Shown piece by piece: positions 1 to 36,589 of a DNA stretch of 64,000 nt. The notes beneath the pieces were generated by a model. It saw only the letters and a list, made by a program, of their open reading frames with translations, did no database searches and was not told where the DNA came from. The position numbers and the translations under genes were made by a program. Origin of the DNA: Luteibaculum oceani (GTDB lineage Bacteria; Bacteroidota; Bacteroidia; Flavobacteriales_D; Luteibaculaceae); the NCBI RefSeq assembly GCF_007995015.1, contig NZ_VORB01000005.1, positions 186,001-250,000 of the forward strand, given 5' to 3'. Every line of letters starts with the position of its first letter. Positions within the stretch are counted from its first letter, which is position 1.

Positions 1-1409
1 TTGTCGCCTTCGTTTCTTGTAGTTCCCGAAATTAAAAGGTTAGTTAAACCTCTTTCGCTGTATTCAATGTTGTATTGTCTAGCTTGGAATTCAGTACCCA
101 AGTTATTAGCAGTAAAATCGAAGATACCCGCCTTAGACTCACCATTTTGAAGGTGCATCAAGTTTACCTTGTACTTAGTGTTACCATCTTTGATAGCTGC
201 ACCTGCCATAGCTCCAAGTAAAACATTGTTTACACCGTAGTCACCTTTTTGACGCTCAAGTGGAGTTAACTCGTTTTGGTTAGGGTCGATAGCTTTACCG
301 TACAGGTTAAATTCAGCATCTTCGTAAAACTCGTACTCGTTCTTGTAGCTTAAAGAAAAGCTGTATCCAATTTTTCTTTCCCCTATTGCAGTTTGGTCAC
401 CGTACGAAAGAGAAACACCCGTATTCATAAAGCTATTTGCTCTATATCCACCCATTTGAGGGTTAAAACCTCTAAGGATGTCTTGGTACTCTTGACCTTT
501 AGCTCCATTAGGATTTCCGATAGCATCGGTAAACATTGGAATATCGGTTCTTCTACCAGTTGGGATATCTCTAGTACCATCGTCGAAACCTAAGAAATCG
601 GTTTTACCACCATTGTACTTAATGTAATCGCTGTTAAAGTGCATGTTTGGATTGAATCCAACTCCTACACCAACATTCATTAGCTTTTCTTCTGGGAAGT
701 CTTTGGTTGTAATATCAACAGCACCACCAGTAAAATCTGCACTTTGCTCAGCAGAGAAACTCTTAGATACTACGATATTATCGATAACATTGGTTGGGAA
801 GATATCCATTTGTACCGTGTTACGATCAGGATCTAGACCTGGGATATCCATACCATTCAACGTAGTTTTAGTATAGCGATCACCTAATCCGCGAACGTAT
901 ACATATTTACCACCTTGAACAGAAACTCCAGTTACACGAGACATAGCGCTCGCTGCATCGGAGTCTCCAATTTTCTTAAAAGATGCTGCGGAGATACCAT
1001 CTATTACTTTCGTTGACTTTTTCTTCATAGTAAGCAACGCAGCCTCAGTATTTTTAACAGCCTTAGCAGTAACAACAACTTCTTTTAGTTGTTCTGCACT
1101 AGCACCTAATCTAATTGTACCTAAAGCAGTTACTTCTCCTTCTTTTACAATTACGTCTTTAACCGTAACTGGAGCAAAAGAGATAAAAGATGCTTTAAGA
1201 TTATAAGTTCCTGGCTCGGCTTTAATTTCGAAGTTACCATCTAGATCTGTAGAAGCTCCTTTGGTAGTTCCCTCTATAATAACAGCCACACCAATTAGTG
1301 TTTCACCAGTTGCATCATCGATAACAGTACCGCGGATTGCAGACTGACCAACTGCCACTGTAGTAACAGCGGTAACACACAACACTAAAAATGCTCTTAA
1401 TAAAAACAT
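1..1409 (-). CDS. TonB-dependent receptor, N-terminal part (gene continues beyond the window)
   Basis: Outer-membrane gated transporter that imports a ligand using TonB-ExbB-ExbD energy. Reading leftward from the ATG at 1409 the frame stays open to base 1, so about 469 residues of the N-terminus are seen and the barrel end is missing. Residues 1-21 are a signal peptide ending in AVG; about 23-105 is a carboxypeptidase-regulatory-like domain (motif DLDGNFEI); then a plug domain with YVRGLGDRYTKTTLNG and DFTGGAVDI, typical of this Bacteroidetes receptor group. No SusD-like partner is visible. It lies downstream of the beta-helix lipoprotein in the same direction, separated by a terminator, and has its own promoter with TTAACA repeats. 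The substrate is unknown; the PhoBR-like pair nearby makes a phosphorus compound a reasonable guess, which is inference only. Confidence 0.9.
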   Translation of the reverse strand, partial: MFLLRAFLVLCVTAVTTVAVGQSAIRGTVIDDATGETLIGVAVIIEGTTKGASTDLDGNFEIKAEPGTYNLKASFISFAPVTVKDVIVKEGEVTALGTIRLGASAEQLKEVVVTAKAVKNTEAALLTMKKKSTKVIDGISAASFKKIGDSDAASAMSRVTGVSVQGGKYVYVRGLGDRYTKTTLNGMDIPGLDPDRNTVQMDIFPTNVIDNIVVSKSFSAEQSADFTGGAVDITTKDFPEEKLMNVGVGVGFNPNMHFNSDYIKYNGGKTDFLGFDDGTRDIPTGRRTDIPMFTDAIGNPNGAKGQEYQDILRGFNPQMGGYRANSFMNTGVSLSYGDQTAIGERKIGYSFSLSYKNEYEFYEDAEFNLYGKAIDPNQNELTPLERQKGDYGVNNVLLGAMAGAAIKDGNTKYKVNLMHLQNGESKAGIFDFTANNLGTEFQARQYNIEYSERGLTNLLISGTTRNEGD

Positions 1410-1462: not shown

Positions 1463-1499
1463 CAATGATAAGTTTAAGGATGTGTTAACGAATTGTTAA
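1463..1499 (-). promoter_or_regulatory. Promoter of the TonB receptor with a two-copy TTAACA box
   Basis: On the minus strand TTAACA occurs at 1499-1494 and again at 1488-1483, exactly 11 bp apart, followed after 12 bp by TATCATTG (1470-1463), one mismatch from the Bacteroidetes -7 element TAnnTTTG. Two direct repeats spaced one helical turn apart just upstream of a -7 element is the layout of a PhoB/OmpR-family activator site. The binding protein is inferred, not shown. Confidence 0.5.
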
Positions 1500-1514
1500 G
1501 CACCAAGGGAAAGC

Positions 1515-1547
1515 ACAAAAAAAGCCCCACGCAGTAGCGTGGGGCTT
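1515..1547 (-). terminator. Intrinsic terminator after the beta-helix lipoprotein gene
   Basis: An 11-bp perfect stem (1522-1532 with 1537-1547, core GCCCCACGC) closes a 4-nt loop. On the minus strand it is followed by a run of T (1523-1517). It separates the lipoprotein gene from the receptor gene. Confidence 0.9.
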
Positions 1548-1569
1548 AACATTTCGTTTATATAGCTAA

Positions 1570-2787
1570 CTAGTTAAGCATACCTGCTTGTCCAGCCCAT
1601 GTCCATGACATCATAGCGCTATTGGCACCAGCATTTTTACGGGTAGCAACCTCAACTGTAGCCTGATCAGATCCTTGCTTAAAGAAATCTCCTAATACTT
1701 TTCCTTCAGGAAGTGTTGCTTCCCATCCAGCGATAAAGTATCCGTTGGTGTTAACAGAGAAACCAACTTCTTCTTTCTCTGCGTTTGGTCCATATCCTTC
1801 TACATCCTGACCTTCGCTTAAGTTAGTGAAGTAGATAGCAGACATTCTTACGTCTGTGTTATCATCTAGATCTACTAATCCAGAAGCTCCATCAGCATAT
1901 AAAGTACCGTTTATGATAGTGTGACCCGTAGAAGTGTAAGCCGCTTCTGGACCATCTAATTCAAATCCTTCGTCACCTGGGTTAATAACTACAAAGTTAT
2001 CTAAAGTACCTGCCCAAGCCTGATCGGTATCGATAGCATCGTCACCAGCATTCCAAACAACGGCGTTGGTTACATTAACAGTTCCTCCGAACCACTCAAT
2101 TCCATCGTCTTGGTTAGCTACAACTTCGATATTTTCGATAACAGTTCCGCTTCCAACACCACCTAAAGTGATACCGTTGATTTCGTTTCCTTCTCCGATG
2201 TTAGCTCCACCGTGACGTACAGATACATATCTTAATACTCCAGAGCTATCCGCATCATTCGTTCCACCGTATTTACCGTTGTTATCCGATGCTGGAATAC
2301 CTTCGATAGAAGCTTCAAGGTTACCACCTTTTATAGATGCATGTGCATTTCCAAGGATGATTAATCCACCCCATAATCCAGATAAATCTGCAGAAAGGTT
2401 AGGAGAAACGGTCATTCCCGGTGCAATTTGATCTGCGTATGAAGTAAAAATGATAGGTTCTTGCTCAGTTCCGTCTGCAATAATGGTAGCTCCTCTTGCA
2501 ATTACTAGTGCTGTAGCATTTGCACCTTCACCTGCCAAACCTTTAATAAGAGCCCCTGGCTCGATAGTTAGGGTAACACCCGCTTCAACAGCAACTCTGT
2601 TAGTTAATACGTACTGCTCTCCTTTTGTCCAAGTTGTGTTTTCTGTGATATTAGAAGAAACTACAATTCCTTGAATTTGATCTGGAGTTGTTGTTTTAGG
2701 ATCCTTCTCACAAGAAACTAGCGCTACTGATGCTGCTAGTATAACACTTGCTAATTTGTTTAGCTTTTTCATTTCAGTTTTTTTCAT
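1570..2787 (-). CDS. Predicted beta-helix surface/periplasmic lipoprotein
   Basis: A lipoprotein of about 405 residues. The signal peptide ends at ALVSC, whose Cys would be lipidated. The body is rich in short repeated strands (for example VTLTIEPGALIKG, IENIEVVANQDDGIEWFGG, HTIINGTLYADG), the look of a right-handed parallel beta-helix. There are no catalytic motifs I recognise. Such lipoproteins are commonly paired with TonB receptors of the kind next door in Bacteroidetes, and some databases mislabel them as transporters. Start: ATG at 2787 is taken; ATG at 2772 (MKKLNKLAS) is equally possible and gives a more usual signal peptide; the TTG at 2805 is unlikely. It may capture or process the ligand of the receptor (inference). 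Confidence 0.75.
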   Translation of the reverse strand: MKKTEMKKLNKLASVILAASVALVSCEKDPKTTTPDQIQGIVVSSNITENTTWTKGEQYVLTNRVAVEAGVTLTIEPGALIKGLAGEGANATALVIARGATIIADGTEQEPIIFTSYADQIAPGMTVSPNLSADLSGLWGGLIILGNAHASIKGGNLEASIEGIPASDNNGKYGGTNDADSSGVLRYVSVRHGGANIGEGNEINGITLGGVGSGTVIENIEVVANQDDGIEWFGGTVNVTNAVVWNAGDDAIDTDQAWAGTLDNFVVINPGDEGFELDGPEAAYTSTGHTIINGTLYADGASGLVDLDDNTDVRMSAIYFTNLSEGQDVEGYGPNAEKEEVGFSVNTNGYFIAGWEATLPEGKVLGDFFKQGSDQATVEVATRKNAGANSAMMSWTWAGQAGMLN

Positions 2788-2855
2788 TCGGTTTTGGTGC
2801 TGCAAATTTGGATCCTTTATTTGCTTGTTTCTAAAATCTGCAGTTATGGAATTAT

Positions 2856-2890
2856 GAAAAATAGACGGGGAAATATTACCTCATTGTTAA
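2856..2890 (-). promoter_or_regulatory. Probable promoter of the beta-helix lipoprotein gene
   Basis: On the minus strand TTAACA (2890-2885) is followed 11 bp later by the weaker copy GTAATA (2879-2874), then after 10 bp by TATTTTTC (2863-2856), one mismatch from TAnnTTTG. The layout resembles that of the receptor promoter. A second TGTTAAC lies at 2935-2941; each TGTTAAC is followed by the 10-mer CATTACCCCA (starting at 2899 and 2946), a direct repeat of unknown role. Confidence 0.35.
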
Positions 2891-2959
2891 CTGGTGACCA
2901 TTACCCCAAAAAATTGGAGAATACACAGTTACAATGTTAACACGGCATTACCCCACCAT

Positions 2960-3292
2960 TTAATTAGAGCCATATTCCTGTCGCAATTTCACTTTTAGAT
3001 ACACCCTGTATATTATATATAGGGATAAATCCGTAGCTGGCTCATCCGATTTCAAAGCTTTTTGGGTAATGTGATCGGGTAAATCTACCTTGTACAAGGC
3101 CTGAAAAAGTTCCCCAGGACGCTCTTCTAACATAGCATCTACCCAGTGAAACATGGTTTTCTTAACAAGATCCAATGTTAAATTTTCGCCGAAATAATTT
3201 TTTGGCAATCCTAAATCTTTTTCTAACTGGCTGATTATCAGTATTAAATCTTTTTCAACTAAAGTAGCGGGTATGTTCTTCGTCAGCTTCAT
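2960..3292 (-). CDS. Conserved-looking hypothetical protein (110 aa)
   Basis: I do not recognise this protein. It is 110 residues, soluble, without a signal peptide or membrane segment, mostly predicted helix, with motifs such as LGLPKNYF and MFHWVDAMLEERPGELFQALYKVDLPD. Start is the ATG at 3292. It is divergent from the MORN-repeat gene, sharing an upstream region of about 80 bp, and points toward the lipoprotein gene. Base composition and codon use look like the neighbours, so it is probably real and not a chance frame. Confidence 0.65.
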   Translation of the reverse strand: MKLTKNIPATLVEKDLILIISQLEKDLGLPKNYFGENLTLDLVKKTMFHWVDAMLEERPGELFQALYKVDLPDHITQKALKSDEPATDLSLYIIYRVYLKVKLRQEYGSN

Positions 3293-3336
3293 GAGAAATG
3301 GATAAGCAACTATTTGGAATTTTCAACGTTTTAATG

Positions 3337-3362
3337 TTACCTTTATGTTAACTCTATATTTC
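3337..3362 (+). promoter_or_regulatory. Promoter of the MORN-repeat gene with 11-bp tandem box
   Basis: Two tandem 11-mers, ATGTTACCTTT and ATGTTAACTCT (9 of 11 identical), place TTACCT at 3337-3342 and TTAACT at 3348-3353. TATATTTC (3355-3362) follows at once and is one mismatch from the -7 element TAnnTTTG. Transcription would begin a few bases before the ATG at 3372, which rules out the upstream ATG at 3345 as translation start. Confidence 0.45.
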
Positions 3363-3371
3363 CAAACCGTT

Positions 3372-3797
3372 ATGAGAAAGAAAATATTAGCCTTCACAAT
3401 TTTACTGGGCATAGCACTTTGCCCACTATTTGGTTCTGCACAAAGAGACAACTCTTTATTCGAAACCTACTTCGACGAAAGTACTGATACTAAATACGAG
3501 TACCTAACATACAATGACAAGCTTTCTGGCCCATTTAAGAAGTATGTTGAGGGTAACTTAACCGAAGAAGGATGGTTAATTGAAAACCAGGCGCACAGCG
3601 AATGGAGACAATACAGCAAAACCGGTAAAAAATTAGCTGAGGTACATTATGTACTAGGCAAAAAACACGGTACCTGGAAAATATGGGATGAAGAAGGAAA
3701 CCTTAGATATAAATACTCATACAACCGTGGGAAACCAACCGGTAAATGGGTGATGTACGGAGAAACTGGAGAAGTTTTACAAACCAAAGATCATTAG
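3372..3797 (+). CDS. Secreted MORN-repeat protein, YwqK-like
   Basis: A 141-residue exported protein. Residues 1-23 form a signal peptide (MRKKILAFTILLGIALC...GSAQ). The rest carries degenerate MORN-2 type repeats recognised by spaced G-x-W/F-x-x-Y patterns: GPFKKYVEGNL, EGWLIENQAHSEWRQY, GKKHGTWKIWDEEGNL, GKPTGKWVMYGETGEV. Proteins of this kind are annotated as YwqK-family antitoxins, but a toxin-immunity role has no support here; no toxin gene is adjacent. The ATG at 3372 is preferred over 3345 because the signal peptide starts there and the promoter overlaps 3345. The TTAAC boxes upstream suggest shared control with the PhoBR-like pair (inference). Confidence 0.75.
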   Translation: MRKKILAFTILLGIALCPLFGSAQRDNSLFETYFDESTDTKYEYLTYNDKLSGPFKKYVEGNLTEEGWLIENQAHSEWRQYSKTGKKLAEVHYVLGKKHGTWKIWDEEGNLRYKYSYNRGKPTGKWVMYGETGEVLQTKDH

Positions 3798-3809
3798 ATT
3801 TTAGCTTGG

Positions 3810-3831
3810 CTTAACTTTCTCTTAACATACG
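3810..3831 (+). promoter_or_regulatory. 11-bp direct repeat CTTAAC box upstream of the response regulator
   Basis: Tandem 11-mers CTTAACTTTCT (3810-3820) and CTTAACATACG (3821-3831) lie just after the MORN-gene stop. They resemble the boxes in front of the receptor and MORN genes. No good -7 element follows directly, so this may be an auxiliary site for the promoter further downstream. Confidence 0.35.
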
Positions 3832-3847
3832 AAGTAATTATTCATGC

Positions 3848-3878
3848 AAACTCCCGTTGCCCTCGGCCTCGGGAGTTT
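3848..3878 (+). terminator. Stem-loop, possible terminator of the MORN-repeat gene
   Basis: A 9-bp stem AAACTCCCG/CGGGAGTTT (3848-3856 with 3870-3878) closes a loop that holds a small GCC/GGC inner stem. The T-run after it is poor, so termination is uncertain. Confidence 0.5.
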
Positions 3879-3883
3879 GTCAT

Positions 3884-3938
3884 TTAACACACTCTTAAAG
3901 CTAACTCTCTTTCCCGTTATAATTCCAAGGTAGATTTG
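3884..3938 (+). promoter_or_regulatory. Promoter of the PhoB-like response regulator gene
   Basis: TTAACA (3884-3889) and TTAAAG (3895-3900) are 11 bp apart. TAGATTTG (3931-3938) is a perfect TAnnTTTG -7 element, 23 bp before the ATG at 3962. No TTTG -33 element is found at the usual distance, which fits an activator-dependent, possibly self-regulated promoter. Confidence 0.5.
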
Positions 3939-3961: not shown

Positions 3962-4645
3962 ATGGACCAAAACAATCACACCATATTACTGGTAGACGAC
4001 GAACCAGATATCCTAGATATAATTAAGTATAATCTAGAGAAGGAAGATTTTAATGTCGTAACCGCCAACAATGGGAAAGAAGGTATTGAAGCTGCTAAAA
4101 AGCATCATCCTCAACTCATTCTTTTAGATGTCATGATGCCAGAAATGGATGGCATAGAAACCTGTACGCTCATTAGAGAAGACAGTAGCATTTCGGATAC
4201 CGTCATCGCTTTTTTAACCGCCCGTTCTGAAGATTATTCCCAAATAGCAGGATTTGAAGCCGGTGCGGACGACTATATTCCCAAGCCCATAAAACCAAGA
4301 GTATTGGTTAGCCGTGTTAAAGCCCTTTTAAGAAGAAAAGGAATAACTGACGGTCCCGCAGAAACTATAGCTCTGGGAGAACTTGAAATAAACAAAGAAA
4401 AGTACTCGGTAAATAAGGGAGGCGAGGAATTAACCCTTCCCAAAAAAGAATTTGAATTATTAGCTTTACTTTGTTCCAAACCCGGACGTGTTTTTACTCG
4501 AGAAGTTATTCTAAACAATGTATGGGGTAACGAAGTGGTTGTGGGAGACAGAACCATTGACGTACATATTAGAAAGCTGAGAGAGAAAATCGGGGAAGAT
4601 TACATTAAAACTGTAAAAGGAGTAGGATACAAAATTGAAGCCTAA
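3962..4645 (+). CDS. PhoB-like response regulator (receiver plus winged helix)
   Basis: OmpR/PhoB-family transcription regulator of 227 residues. The receiver domain (about 6-122) has the acidic pair Asp12/Asp13, phospho-acceptor Asp56 in LILLDVMMP, Thr86 and Lys108. The winged-helix DNA-binding domain (about 130-227) ends with RTIDVHIRKLREKIG and VKGVGYKI, as in PhoB. ATG at 3962 begins MDQNNHTILLVDD; the upstream TTG at 3941 is unlikely because it lies only a few bases after the -7 element. The gene overlaps the kinase gene by 11 bp, so the two are one operon. It is closest in appearance to the PhoB-type regulators of Bacteroidetes; phosphate as signal is likely but unproven. Confidence 0.92.
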   Translation: MDQNNHTILLVDDEPDILDIIKYNLEKEDFNVVTANNGKEGIEAAKKHHPQLILLDVMMPEMDGIETCTLIREDSSISDTVIAFLTARSEDYSQIAGFEAGADDYIPKPIKPRVLVSRVKALLRRKGITDGPAETIALGELEINKEKYSVNKGGEELTLPKKEFELLALLCSKPGRVFTREVILNNVWGNEVVVGDRTIDVHIRKLREKIGEDYIKTVKGVGYKIEA

Positions 4646-5699
4646 GTTAATTTCGTACGATTCCAGTCCAAAAAGCGTGGCGCTTAAGTGCGCTATGCTA
4701 GTTGCGGGGGCTGTTTTACTAATAGGGGCCATTTCGGAATACTTCGTTTATGGAAAAACCACCTGGTTTTCCATCCTCCTTTTCCCCGCTGTTGCTGGTA
4801 TCAGTTCTTTTGTATTTGTCAGTTTCTTTATTCAGCAATTCATAATTGCTAAAATTCGCCTCATCTACAAAACCATACGATCCCTCAAGAAAGACTCCCA
4901 AGACCTAAATCTTAACTTTTCAAGAGATCTTCTTAAAGAGGTTAACCGAGAGGTAATCGATTGGGCGGATGACCAGAGAAAAGAAATTGAAGTACTAAAG
5001 GAAAAGGAAAACTTTAGACGTGAGTTTATAGGGAACCTAGCCCACGAAATAAAAACTCCCATCTTCGCTATTCAAGGATACATTTTAACCCTATTAGAAG
5101 GTGGGATGAACGACCCAAGAATCAATAAAAAGTTCTTGGAAAAAGCTTCTCGAAGCACCGATAGAATGGTGGCTATGATAGAAGACCTAGATTCCATCTC
5201 TCAGTTGGAATCAGGAAAATTAAAATTGTACCAAGAGGAATTTGATGTTGTAGCGCTGGCCCAAGACATTATCGATTCGCTTGAAATGAGAGCGAAGGAG
5301 CACAACGTAACGCTCAAATTCAACAAAAAATACGACAAGCCTATTTTGGTTCATGCTGATCCAAATAGAATAAGTCAGGTACTATCTAATTTGTTGGTAA
5401 ACTCCATTAATTACGCTAAACCAGAAGGCGGTGAAACCGAAATCCGCTTTTTCGATATCGATGAAGACATCCTTATTGAGGTGGCTGACAACGGAATAGG
5501 AATAGACCAAAAAGATATACCTAGAATTTTTGAAAGGTTTTTCCGTGTTGATAAACACCGATCTCGCCACACTGGTGGTAGCGGCTTAGGGCTTTCCATC
5601 TGTAAGCACATTATTAATGCCCATGGATACACCATGGATGTTAGATCCACTAAGGGAATTGGCACTACATTTCTATTTCCTCTGAAAAAAGTAGGTTAG
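4635..5699 (+). CDS. PhoR-like membrane sensor histidine kinase
   Basis: Partner of the preceding regulator. Two membrane helices (about 16-36 and 45-70) with only a very short loop between them leave almost no periplasmic sensor, as in Bacteroidetes PhoR proteins. A linker helix leads to the HisKA domain with His137 in NLAHEIKTP; the ATPase domain shows N box LSNLLVNSINYA, G1 DNGIGI, F box FERFFRVDKH and G2 GGSGLGLSI. Start: the only plausible upstream codon is TTG at 4635, inside the regulator's last codons; ATG at 4698 would cut off the first helix. The minimal sensor suggests it reads the state of a membrane partner (in other bacteria the Pst transporter with PhoU), not a free ligand. Confidence 0.9.
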   Translation: MKPKLISYDSSPKSVALKCAMLVAGAVLLIGAISEYFVYGKTTWFSILLFPAVAGISSFVFVSFFIQQFIIAKIRLIYKTIRSLKKDSQDLNLNFSRDLLKEVNREVIDWADDQRKEIEVLKEKENFRREFIGNLAHEIKTPIFAIQGYILTLLEGGMNDPRINKKFLEKASRSTDRMVAMIEDLDSISQLESGKLKLYQEEFDVVALAQDIIDSLEMRAKEHNVTLKFNKKYDKPILVHADPNRISQVLSNLLVNSINYAKPEGGETEIRFFDIDEDILIEVADNGIGIDQKDIPRIFERFFRVDKHRSRHTGGSGLGLSICKHIINAHGYTMDVRSTKGIGTTFLFPLKKVG

Positions 5700-5730: not shown

Positions 5731-6177
5731 GTGAAATTCAAAGAAGTACTTATAGAACGAGACGACATTCCAAGCGAATGGTTAGATCTCTTAGGCGGAA
5801 AATTTAGTTTTTGGGAAAATCTTAAAATCCGAGGAACGGGATCCCCCGCATTATCCCTAGCCAAAAACAACAGTGCCCCAGTTTTACTACCCTACAAATT
5901 CCACGAATCCTACGAACGCATTCCTTTTAACCTAGAGCTATACCCCAGAGGAGTTGTGTTTAGGGGTAACTGGAAAACGAAAACTTTTTGGGGCTGTATT
6001 TTAAACTCCGAAATTTTAGCCATCTCCACACTTATAAATCAATCGAAGCAATTGGAGTTGGGGATAAAACTCAAATCGGGCCATTTGATCTATTTTAACG
6101 GAAGAAGCGATCAACAAAACGCAATTACAGCCTTCGTAAACAAATGGAAAAAACTAAGCCAAGCGGTTAGCCTTTAA
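5731..6177 (+). CDS. Hypothetical protein (148 aa)
   Basis: I do not recognise this protein. It is 148 residues, starts with GTG at 5731, has no signal peptide or membrane helix, and is strand-rich (YPRGVVFRGNWKTKTFWGCIL, LGIKLKSGHLIYFNG). The last segment resembles the tail of small PH-like domains, but that is only a visual impression. It follows the kinase gene by 31 bp in the same direction and may share its transcript. Its last 24 bp overlap the convergent glycosyltransferase gene. Confidence 0.6.
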   Translation: MKFKEVLIERDDIPSEWLDLLGGKFSFWENLKIRGTGSPALSLAKNNSAPVLLPYKFHESYERIPFNLELYPRGVVFRGNWKTKTFWGCILNSEILAISTLINQSKQLELGIKLKSGHLIYFNGRSDQQNAITAFVNKWKKLSQAVSL

Positions 6178-7176
6178 AAAGGAAGTGATTTGGTCCTGAA
6201 ACCTTGCAGAACCAAAAGCAGCTAGCTCCATAAATTGTTCCTCCTCTATCCCTTTTGGAAATCCTTTGTGGAACCCGTGTTTCTTCGCAAGATATTCCTG
6301 TTCAGGTTGCCCTGGAGTTGGGAAACAAAGCAATGGTTTTTGTAGCAATGCGGCATCCATCAAGGTAGTGTAACCGCTGTAAGAAATAATCCTTTCCGCT
6401 GCCAAAACATAATCGCATACTTGATTAATCCTCTCACCAATTAGTAAGCGATTGTCGTTGATCTCCTCCACCGAATAAGGACAAAGAATTATCCAACGCT
6501 CATACTTAGAGTTGGAAAGCAACTTAAAGACCCTTTGAGTAAAACGCCTTGCTTCTATTTCCGGCCCCGAAGCCACCGCTACAATTTCTATAGTATCAAT
6601 TTTAGCATTGCGACTTTGATATTGCGACAACAGCCCTATAAATCTAGTTTTTGAACTTAAAGCAGGTGAAATAGCCGATAGTTTGCCACTTAGAAATTGG
6701 TTTTCAAAATCGGGAATCCAGAGCTCGGTAAACTTGTCGAAATAATGGATGCGCAATTTCTTTAGCCACCGACTCCAACCAAAGGGCGCTGGGTTTATTT
6801 GGTGATTAATAAGCACTGAAGGTATTGCGGAATGATAAAATCCCAACCGAGCATCAGAGATGATTAGATCGTACTTCTGGTTTAAACAGTGCTCTTTTAA
6901 CCACCAATTTTCCCATTTTATTACTTTTTTAATCCTTATCCCAGAAAGAGCCACCCCAGCGGTTAAGAAGGGTTTCTTTAAATATTTAATCCGGTAGGAA
7001 TTAAGCGTATGAAAAGTGAGCTGGGGGTATGCATCGTTGAGGTAGCTGAGCGCCTTACCATCCGATGCAATTTCCACTTTCCAACCCATGGATAAAAAGA
7101 AATCGATTACAGGCACAGACCGCGTCGCATGACCCAATCCCCAATTTAAAACACCATACATTAATCGTTTCTCCAT
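6154..7176 (-). CDS. Glycosyltransferase, GT28/MurG-like fold
   Basis: A 340-residue GT-B type glycosyltransferase. The N-terminus NWGLGHATRSVPVIDFF is the glycine-rich acceptor/membrane loop seen in this family; the C-terminal half has AERIISYSGYTTLMDAALLQKPLLCFPTPGQPEQ, the nucleotide-sugar binding region typical of Glyco_tran_28_C proteins. It is shorter and too divergent to be MurG itself. Sugar donor and acceptor are unknown. It is divergent from trmB and its 3-prime end overlaps the neighbouring gene by 24 bp. Confidence 0.75.
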   Translation of the reverse strand: MEKRLMYGVLNWGLGHATRSVPVIDFFLSMGWKVEIASDGKALSYLNDAYPQLTFHTLNSYRIKYLKKPFLTAGVALSGIRIKKVIKWENWWLKEHCLNQKYDLIISDARLGFYHSAIPSVLINHQINPAPFGWSRWLKKLRIHYFDKFTELWIPDFENQFLSGKLSAISPALSSKTRFIGLLSQYQSRNAKIDTIEIVAVASGPEIEARRFTQRVFKLLSNSKYERWIILCPYSVEEINDNRLLIGERINQVCDYVLAAERIISYSGYTTLMDAALLQKPLLCFPTPGQPEQEYLAKKHGFHKGFPKGIEEEQFMELAAFGSARFQDQITSFLKANRLA

Positions 7177-36498: not shown

Positions 36499-36589
36499 GG
36501 AGAGGTGGCCGAGTGGTCGAAGGCGCACGCCTGGAAAGTGTGTATACCTCTAAAGGGTATCGAGGGTTCGAATCCCTCTCTCTCCGCCA
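36499..36589 (+). tRNA. tRNA-Ser (anticodon GGA)
   Basis: Acceptor GGAGAGG pairs with TCTCTCC; anticodon loop CTGGAAA gives GGA (reads UCC/UCU); a long variable arm marks class II tRNA; T-loop is TTCGAAT. The CCA end is encoded (36587-36589). Discriminator base is G. A terminator is not seen after it; exbB starts 47 bp downstream. Confidence 0.97.

Follow-up and report, generated by a model that had tools for sequence, protein, structure and literature searches.

Which regulator reads the TTAAC-like direct repeats, spaced 11 bp apart, that stand beside the phoB-like gene of Luteibaculum oceani, and to what signal would it respond? A preliminary description of this window, the 64,000-nucleotide stretch of DNA analyzed here, had placed such repeats before the receptor, MORN, response-regulator, and lipoprotein genes and suggested that five genes here may form one phosphate-responsive regulon. 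The present analysis makes it highly probable, on sequence grounds, that the repeats are Pho boxes of the adjacent PhoB-like regulator and part of a self-controlled phosphate-starvation switch.

Results

The locus resembles a Flavobacterium-type phoBR cluster

The gene neighborhood of this cluster (TonB receptor, lipoprotein, phoB, phoR, and glycosyltransferase) is present in the window (Table 1). The lipoprotein has no match in Pfam or NCBIfam. A terminator-like hairpin lies between the lipoprotein and receptor genes, and the receptor therefore probably has its own promoter. A second hairpin, at 3852-3880 after the distal phoB boxes, was considered as the terminator of a small RNA and rejected, the boxes being too near and a -7 element absent; it more likely marks the end of the MORN transcript.

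The two best of the 100 NCBIfam models matching the regulator are the PhoB models TIGR02154 (219.8 bits, cut-off 296.2) and NF053854 (214.7, cut-off 270), though both scores fall below cut-off. The best models of the kinase, PnpS, WalK, and PhoR, are likewise all below cut-off, with PnpS on top (247.3, cut-off 400) and the PhoR models TIGR02966 and NF053855 at 220.5 (cut-off 334.2) and 150.4 (cut-off 500). These PhoB and PhoR scores count against the Pho-box reading.

Table 1. Genes, predicted Pho boxes, and promoter elements of the locus, in window coordinates
Feature	Position	Strand	Basis
TonB-dependent receptor, incomplete at the window edge, with CarboxypepD_reg and Plug domains	1..1409	-	Pfam PF13715, PF07715
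Candidate -7 element of the receptor, TATCATTG, differing from TAnnTTTG at one position, 18 bp downstream of box 1488	1463..1470	-	sequence
Predicted triple tandem Pho-box array TTAACA-TTAACA-TTAAAC (1499, 1488, 1477) upstream of the receptor	1473..1499	-	sequence; rank 4/127,954
Hairpin and T run resembling a terminator, between the lipoprotein and receptor genes	1516..1546	-	sequence
Lipoprotein	1570..2772	-	synteny: ortholog of pectin-lyase-fold lipoprotein FII beside phoBR in Flavobacterium (PMC8115612)
Putative -7 element TATTTTTC of the lipoprotein, one mismatch, 16 bp after box 2879	2856..2863	-	sequence; spacing rule
Predicted tandem Pho box TTAACA-N5-GTAATA (2890, 2879) upstream of the lipoprotein	2875..2890	-	rank 3 in window; array conserved before orthologs
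110-aa gene, function unassigned by homology	2960..3292	-	weak homologs, about 30% identity, in 15/62 genera
Predicted Pho box with the top score in the window, TTAACA-N5-GTAACA, directed toward the 110-aa gene	3336..3351	-	profile, 22.5 bits
MORN_2-repeat protein, signal-peptide-like start	3372..3797	+	Pfam PF07661
Predicted distal Pho-box pair TTAACT-N5-TTAACA (3811, 3822) upstream of phoB, about -151 to -136	3811..3827	+	rank 2 in window
Predicted proximal Pho-box pair TTAACA-N5-TTAAAG (3884, 3895) upstream of phoB	3884..3900	+	10.5 bits, rank 14
-7 element of phoB, TAGATTTG, an exact TAnnTTTG match 36 bp downstream of box 3895	3931..3938	+	sequence; relatives 15, 26/27, 37/38
PhoB-like response regulator, receiver and winged-helix DNA-binding domains	3962..4645	+	Pfam PF00072, PF00486
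PhoR-like sensor kinase, overlaps phoB	4635..5699	+	Pfam PF00512, PF02518
Glycosyltransferase, also accompanies phoBR in relatives	6154..7176	-	synteny; PMC8115612 (Fjoh_0541)

The strongest tandem boxes of the window cluster at this locus

A profile of the tandem box was built solely from promoters that precede orthologs of phoB, the lipoprotein, and the TonB receptor in relatives, and was scanned over 127,954 window positions. The best four sites, at 3351(-), 3811(+), 2890(-), and 1499(-), all lie in the locus, and shuffled windows held 0.57 +/- 0.8 matches at 14 bits or above. The repeats of the preliminary description are present and, by a profile that draws on relatives only, four of their sites stand above chance at ranks 1-4. 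The distal pair before the response regulator had been given as 3810/3821, one base low; its boxes start at 3811 and 3822. The receptor array has a third repeat, TTAAAC at 1477(-), which the preliminary description lacked. The start of the glycosyltransferase gene holds none of the top-ranked sites.

MORN had also been named as a target, from the plus-strand reading of 3336-3352 (TTACCT at 3337 and TTAACT at 3348). That reading scores 11.7 bits versus 22.5 bits on the minus strand, which suggests that the site mainly points the opposite way, at the 110-aa gene, and leaves MORN unsupported as a main target.

Across the 2.92-Mb genome, the exact pattern TTAAC-N6-TTAAC occurs 11 times, including two occurrences within this 2.5-kb stretch, versus 24 in the reversed control; this lack of genome-wide enrichment counts against the Pho-box reading. 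A degenerate pattern gave eight genome-wide matches, four at this locus, a concentration that is partly circular since the pattern was picked to fit the four sites. PstS, Pit, and PhoX are not detectable in this genome, which also counts against the Pho-box reading. With strict sites concentrated at one locus and these three proteins undetected, a genome-wide regulon finds no support.

Boxes and -7 elements are in 11-bp phase in relatives

The TAnnTTTG-like element reported after each promoter-proximal box is exact for phoB only, and carries one mismatch for the lipoprotein, the receptor, and MORN; inspection of the sequence after the pair 3811/3822 revealed none. The MORN element, TATATTTC, follows the box at 3348 by only 7 bp, and the receptor's 18-bp distance to TATCATTG falls outside the usual 15/26 spacing, which again counts against the Pho-box reading. 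Across Bacteroidota, box-to-TAnnTTTG distances cluster at 15, 26-27, and 37(-38) bp, in steps of 11. Among the window promoters, the lipoprotein's 16 bp agrees with this series and phoB's 36 bp comes close to it. The corresponding gap peaks at 21-22 in 299 order-mates (31/101 non-redundant matches) and at 20-22 and 10-12 in 296 genomes of the phylum. The Bacteroidota layout is, as predicted from these arrangements, a PhoB-type array in place of the -33 element.

The arrays are conserved before phoB, lipoprotein, and receptor genes

The upstream regions of phoB in 29 relatives contain nine exact TTAAC-N6-TTAAC matches, versus 0.03 in shuffles (maximum 1), and TTAA[CAT] pairs at 11 bp occur in 19/29 genomes versus 1.1 in shuffles. 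Spacing is specific: 15 pairs stand at 11 bp, with zero to two at nearly every other spacing. Pairs at 11 bp were also counted before orthologs of the lipoprotein (21) and receptor (10), and none before those of PHOR or GT. When the profile, held fixed, was applied to 80 named loci, some of which may overlap its training genomes, sites of at least 10 bits were found for TBDT in 17/26, LIPO in 14/22, and PHOB in 32/78; reversed controls gave 1/26, 1/22, and 6/78, and the count before PHOR was 1/68. The earlier assignment of these arrays to the OmpR/PhoB type is therefore borne out before phoB, lipoprotein, and TonB receptor, with conservation across Bacteroidota families.

The same promoter precedes phosphate genes in other families

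In-phase promoters elsewhere precede DUF47-PitA in two families, with 10 genomes in one and two in the other, and also precede PstS-PstC, a weakly PHO4-like protein, and PhoB. Phosphate is well supported as the signal of the Bacteroidota box promoter because this same promoter stands before pit/DUF47, pstSC, and phoB. Genome-wide scans also placed in-phase promoters before M1 peptidases, chromate transporters, and thioredoxin-like lipoproteins, which have no known phosphate role. PhoX (PF05787) promoters, taken as a positive control, had no boxes at 30 order-mate loci, though PhoX is among the most induced F. johnsoniae genes. Both of these findings count against the Pho-box reading.

In the F. 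johnsoniae phoBR cluster, Pi depletion raises the receptor by 8.0, the lipoprotein by 9.9, PhoB by 3.1, and GT by 5.4 log2 units (PMC8115612). PhoB binding and low-phosphate induction are documented in literature on related species only (PMC9603813, PMC8115612, and PMC3547664), and the genes studied here may respond to phosphate as well. The phosphate link in the originally proposed regulon is supported by the pit/pst/phoB promoters elsewhere and the induced F. johnsoniae orthologs; a genome-wide extent is not.

In a sister family, one of the Flavobacteriales, a candidate Pho-box-driven small RNA was observed that is absent from Rfam; it is conserved, about 130-165 nt long, and ends in a covarying terminator hairpin. 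Neither the window nor the rest of the L. oceani genome contains a significant match to its model.

Discussion

We propose that phosphate limitation would lead PhoR to phosphorylate PhoB, and that the phosphorylated regulator would bind the tandem 11-bp half-sites head to tail. PhoB would occupy arrays of two or three boxes whose distance to the downstream TAnnTTTG is 15 bp, or is longer than this by one or two turns of 11 bp, where it would cover the missing -33 region and recruit RNA polymerase carrying the primary sigma factor. It would then activate its own operon, phoBR, together with the outer-membrane lipoprotein and the TonB receptor, probably also the 110-aa gene, and only possibly MORN.

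Three other explanations have to be weighed. The boxes may be PhoB operators in a lineage whose signal is not mainly phosphate, such as envelope or redox stress. In Riemerella anatipestifer, the genes under PhoPR control include many non-phosphate genes, and the authors of that study suggest a role in aerotolerance (PMC9603813); the undetectable Pst, Pit, and PhoX of L. oceani fit this as well. However, phoPR of the same species is reported to be upregulated in phosphate starvation (PMC9603813), several P-responsive F. johnsoniae loci are described as tightly repressed when cells are limited for N and Fe (PMC8115612), and the promoter precedes pit and pst in other families, which together render a different signal unlikely.

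A slightly more doubtful explanation is that a different OmpR-family regulator, and not the adjacent protein, uses the repeats as its operator, or that they represent a generic TTAAC motif which several such regulators share. Recognition of 11-bp direct repeats is common among OmpR-family regulators, and non-phosphate genes also lie behind in-phase promoters. The flavobacterial PhoP motif was judged similar to that of E. coli ArcA by the authors of PMC9603813; yet the arrays match that very PhoP motif, track phoB itself across families, and precede pit and pst. That functionless TTAAC pairs at 11 bp arose by chance from AT-rich intergenic DNA is scarcely credible. The genome-wide frequency of the exact pattern, no higher than in the reversed control, would fit chance, but the arrays are conserved between genomes and specific in their spacing, and the window ranking together with the phoB upstream counts in relatives already contradicts it.

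For PhoB boxes beyond this locus, the evidence leans toward a Bacteroidota-wide Pho promoter code, in which TTAAC-N6-TTAAC arrays would stand 15 + 11k bp from TAnnTTTG, from transporter operons to phoB, with a phosphate-starvation small RNA in one Flavobacteriales family. A literature search found no Bacteroidota Pho-box sequence or promoter layout beyond one DAP-seq motif. The Bacteroidota count among the important users of organic phosphorus. With such a code, phosphate regulons could be predicted for genomes that have yet to be studied; the code also hints at how activators act where a promoter has no -33 element, and it directs attention to a candidate small RNA under phosphate control.

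Pho boxes as such are already known, and those described here would be a further Pho-box operator. The Bacillus subtilis PhoP box shares their TTAACA-type hexamer and 11-bp period. Its direct-repeat design is confirmed in PMC4415409. The arrays here differ in their targets and in standing before TAnnTTTG, the -7 element of Bacteroidota. For R. anatipestifer PhoP, also a Bacteroidota regulator, the accessible part of PMC9603813 gives a DAP-seq motif with the same core (TTTAACA); in EMSA the protein bound its own operon, phoPR, at -156 to -121, and also bound before a TonB receptor and moxR. That part describes no 11-bp tandem layout or spacing to a -7 element, and its phosphate link rests on phoPR upregulation in starvation. 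The F. johnsoniae phoBR cluster, or PUSIV, which is induced at low Pi, shares with the window the receptor, pectin-lyase-fold lipoprotein, phoB, phoR, and glycosyltransferase, while the window adds the MORN and 110-aa genes; no mention of a Pho box was found in PMC8115612. The SphR Pho boxes of cyanobacteria (CTTAACCT, 8 bp with a 3-bp linker) share the CTTAAC core, the 11-bp period, and the two or three tandem repeats (PMC1906773), in another phylum and with another promoter core. The Escherichia coli PhoB Pho box, in contrast, has the core CTGTCAT rather than TTAAC, and yet it too consists of tandem 11-bp units, and these lie close to the -10 element, on its upstream side and at a fixed distance (PMC1906773, PMC4415409).

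Tandem boxes at the receptor–phoBR locus

The window corresponds to bases 186001-250000 of contig C5 in the 2.92-Mb genome of L. oceani. The relatives of this species belong to the Flavobacteriales and to further Bacteroidota groups. The preliminary description had reported TTAAC-like boxes repeated at 11 bp ahead of the receptor, lipoprotein, MORN, and response regulator genes, and had raised a possible Pho regulon. All of these boxes were found in the sequence, one pair lying 1 base from its assigned position, and the receptor array contains an additional third repeat at 1477.

Genes of the receptor–phoBR locus (window positions) and loci of the f9 RNA candidate
Feature	Coordinates	Strand	Remark
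TonB receptor	start 1409	minus	
Lipoprotein	2772-1570	minus	
110-aa gene	3292-2960	minus	
MORN_2 protein	3372-3797	plus	
PhoB-like regulator	3962-4645	plus	
PhoR-like kinase	4635-5699	plus	
Glycosyltransferase	7176-6154	minus	
f9 RNA candidate	L074-L080, L082, L083, L085; e.g. L076:1047-1201	+ (L076)	behind gap-22 promoter

A 24-bp tandem profile was trained by expectation maximisation only on regions upstream of relatives' phoB, lipoprotein, and receptor orthologs; its seed was the TTAAC-N6-TTAAC consensus, the motif already described, and its ranking of window sites is a test of transfer, not blind discovery. On both strands, the four best window positions, 3351(-) (22.5 bits), 3811(+) (19.0), 2890(-) (17.1), and 1499(-) (16.1), all fall inside the receptor–phoBR locus, with 3337(+) ranked 8 and 3884(+) ranked 14. 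The strongest site, 3336-3351, is oriented toward the 110-aa gene, for which weak homologs occur in 15 of 62 genera. Boxes precede a MORN gene in two relatives (loci L171 and L173), and therefore this predicted site could possibly serve both directions, toward the 110-aa gene and toward MORN.

Conservation across relatives

In L. oceani, exact TTAAC-N6-TTAAC occurs 11 times versus 24 for the reversed pattern; there is no genome-wide enrichment, and the box signal resides in position and conservation, not in genome-wide frequency. In 30 genomes, L. oceani included, the sequence before the phoB ortholog holds 15 same-strand TTAAC pairs at spacing 11 and 0-2 at nearly all other spacings. With L. 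oceani excluded, TTAAC-N6-TTAAC was observed there 9 times versus 0.03 expected (maximum 1 in 400 dinucleotide shuffles), and two TTAA[CAT] boxes 11 bp apart in 19 of 29 genomes versus 1.1 expected from dinucleotide shuffles. Such 11-bp pairs numbered 23 before phoB orthologs (mean at other spacings 3.8), 21 before lipoprotein orthologs (3.7), and 10 before receptor orthologs (1.2), with none before relatives' phoR or glycosyltransferase genes. In 80 named loci, whose genomes may partly overlap those used for training, the profile scored at least 10 bits (the threshold) before 17 of 26 receptor genes (reversed sequences, 1), 14 of 22 lipoprotein genes (1), 32 of 78 phoB genes (6), and 1 of 68 phoR genes.

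The receptor–lipoprotein–phoB–phoR–glycosyltransferase cluster recurs in many families and is present in named Flavobacterium species too. The receptor has its own array mostly where it does not lie immediately behind the lipoprotein gene, an arrangement that the window fits, with a terminator-like hairpin between the two.

Promoter layout and proposed mechanism

The open pattern TTAAC-N6-TTAAC-N{0,30}-TAnnTTTG, which ends in the Bacteroidota -7 element, gave 101 non-redundant matches in 299 order-mates, 31 with a gap of 21-22 and 5 with a gap of 10, where a typical bin holds ~2-3. Across 296 phylum genomes, the 150 matches listed (duplicates kept) included 14, 18, and 33 at gaps 20, 21, and 22, 13 at gap 10, 10 at gap 25, and 8 at gap 6; the gap-25 loci inspected were dapF-like orthologs. 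The second box starts 15 or 25-27 bp from TAnnTTTG, and in phoB promoters also 37-38 bp from it; the distances rise by 11-bp steps, each a single turn of the helix. The boxes sit where the -33 element would be. Of the window promoters, those of the lipoprotein (16 bp) and phoB (36 bp) come close to this spacing; those of the receptor (18) and MORN (7) depart from it.

From the observed boxes, conservation, phase, and target genes, the window boxes are best read as a predicted PhoB operator. PhoB would sit head-to-tail on two or three 11-bp half-sites, and the array would stand in for the -33 element and bring polymerase to TAnnTTTG. We infer that the PhoB-like regulator encoded here binds these boxes and that target genes are activated through them, phosphate being the presumed signal in L. 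oceani.

The predicted regulon within and beyond L. oceani

When a degenerate pattern was fitted to the four top locus sites, it matched the genome 8 times. Four matches lie at the receptor–phoBR locus; one of the others is intragenic, two have no gene ahead in the orientation they face, and one is 99 bp upstream of the gene for a secreted-looking protein. The strict regulon, as far as it can be detected, therefore lies mostly at this locus. The genome gave no family match to PhoX, Pit, or PstS. It encodes a 580-aa PhoU-domain protein at C5:149931, with no site of at least 10 bits on the ~3-kb loci around that gene. Separately, a triple box (TTAAC/TTAAC/GTAAC) precedes the gene for a secreted, esterase-like protein carrying a T9SS tail (L008, C6:120399, minus).

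Elsewhere, in-phase promoters (arrays 15 bp, or 15 bp plus 11-bp steps, upstream of TAnnTTTG) precede a DUF47 (PF01865) gene with a Pit (PF01384) transporter behind it, in 10 genomes of one family and 2 of another. They also precede a PBP_like_2 (PstS-like) gene with a BPD_transp_1 permease next in line, phoB, moxR (L266, G384:C1), TonB receptors, a purple-acid-phosphatase-like protein, and also genes without a known phosphate role; no box precedes PhoX genes in order-mates. Of these targets, moxR and a TonB receptor are PhoP-bound in R. anatipestifer as well (PMC9603813). In family f19 (L202, L203, L204, L206) the promoter precedes ~378-aa membrane proteins, possibly a new phosphate carrier; the L202 protein, the sole member scanned, weakly matches PHO4 (phosphate transporter). 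In-phase boxes recur before related-looking lipoproteins in family f17 (L215, L219, L264, L269), one with a Thioredoxin_8 domain.

In 13 genomes of family f9, a conserved 130-165-nt noncoding stretch lies immediately 3' of the in-phase promoter. It ends in a terminator with a covarying stem (double changes in 8 of 10 pairs). Model R1 detects this RNA candidate in the 13 f9 genomes and did not find it in L. oceani; Rfam gave no family at cut-off and one sub-threshold RsmY match. At L082, a prsA-like gene follows in place of the receptor. The sole Rfam match at gathering threshold in the window is a tRNA gene (36499-36586).

Comparison with known Pho systems

In F. johnsoniae, Pi depletion raises (log2) the receptor Fjoh_0545 by 8.0, the lipoprotein FII Fjoh_0546 by 9.9, phoB (Fjoh_0544) by 3.1, and the glycosyltransferase Fjoh_0541 by 5.4 (PMC8115612). 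Pho boxes are direct repeats of 11 nt (PMC4415409), cyanobacterial SphR boxes consist of CTTAACCT with a 3-bp linker (PMC1906773), and PhoB of B. fragilis binds the promoter of pstC (PMC3547664). For R. anatipestifer PhoP, TTTAACA is the most conserved part of the DAP-seq motif, and EMSA showed binding to its own operon at -156 to -121; PhoP also binds before moxR and a TonB receptor (PMC9603813).
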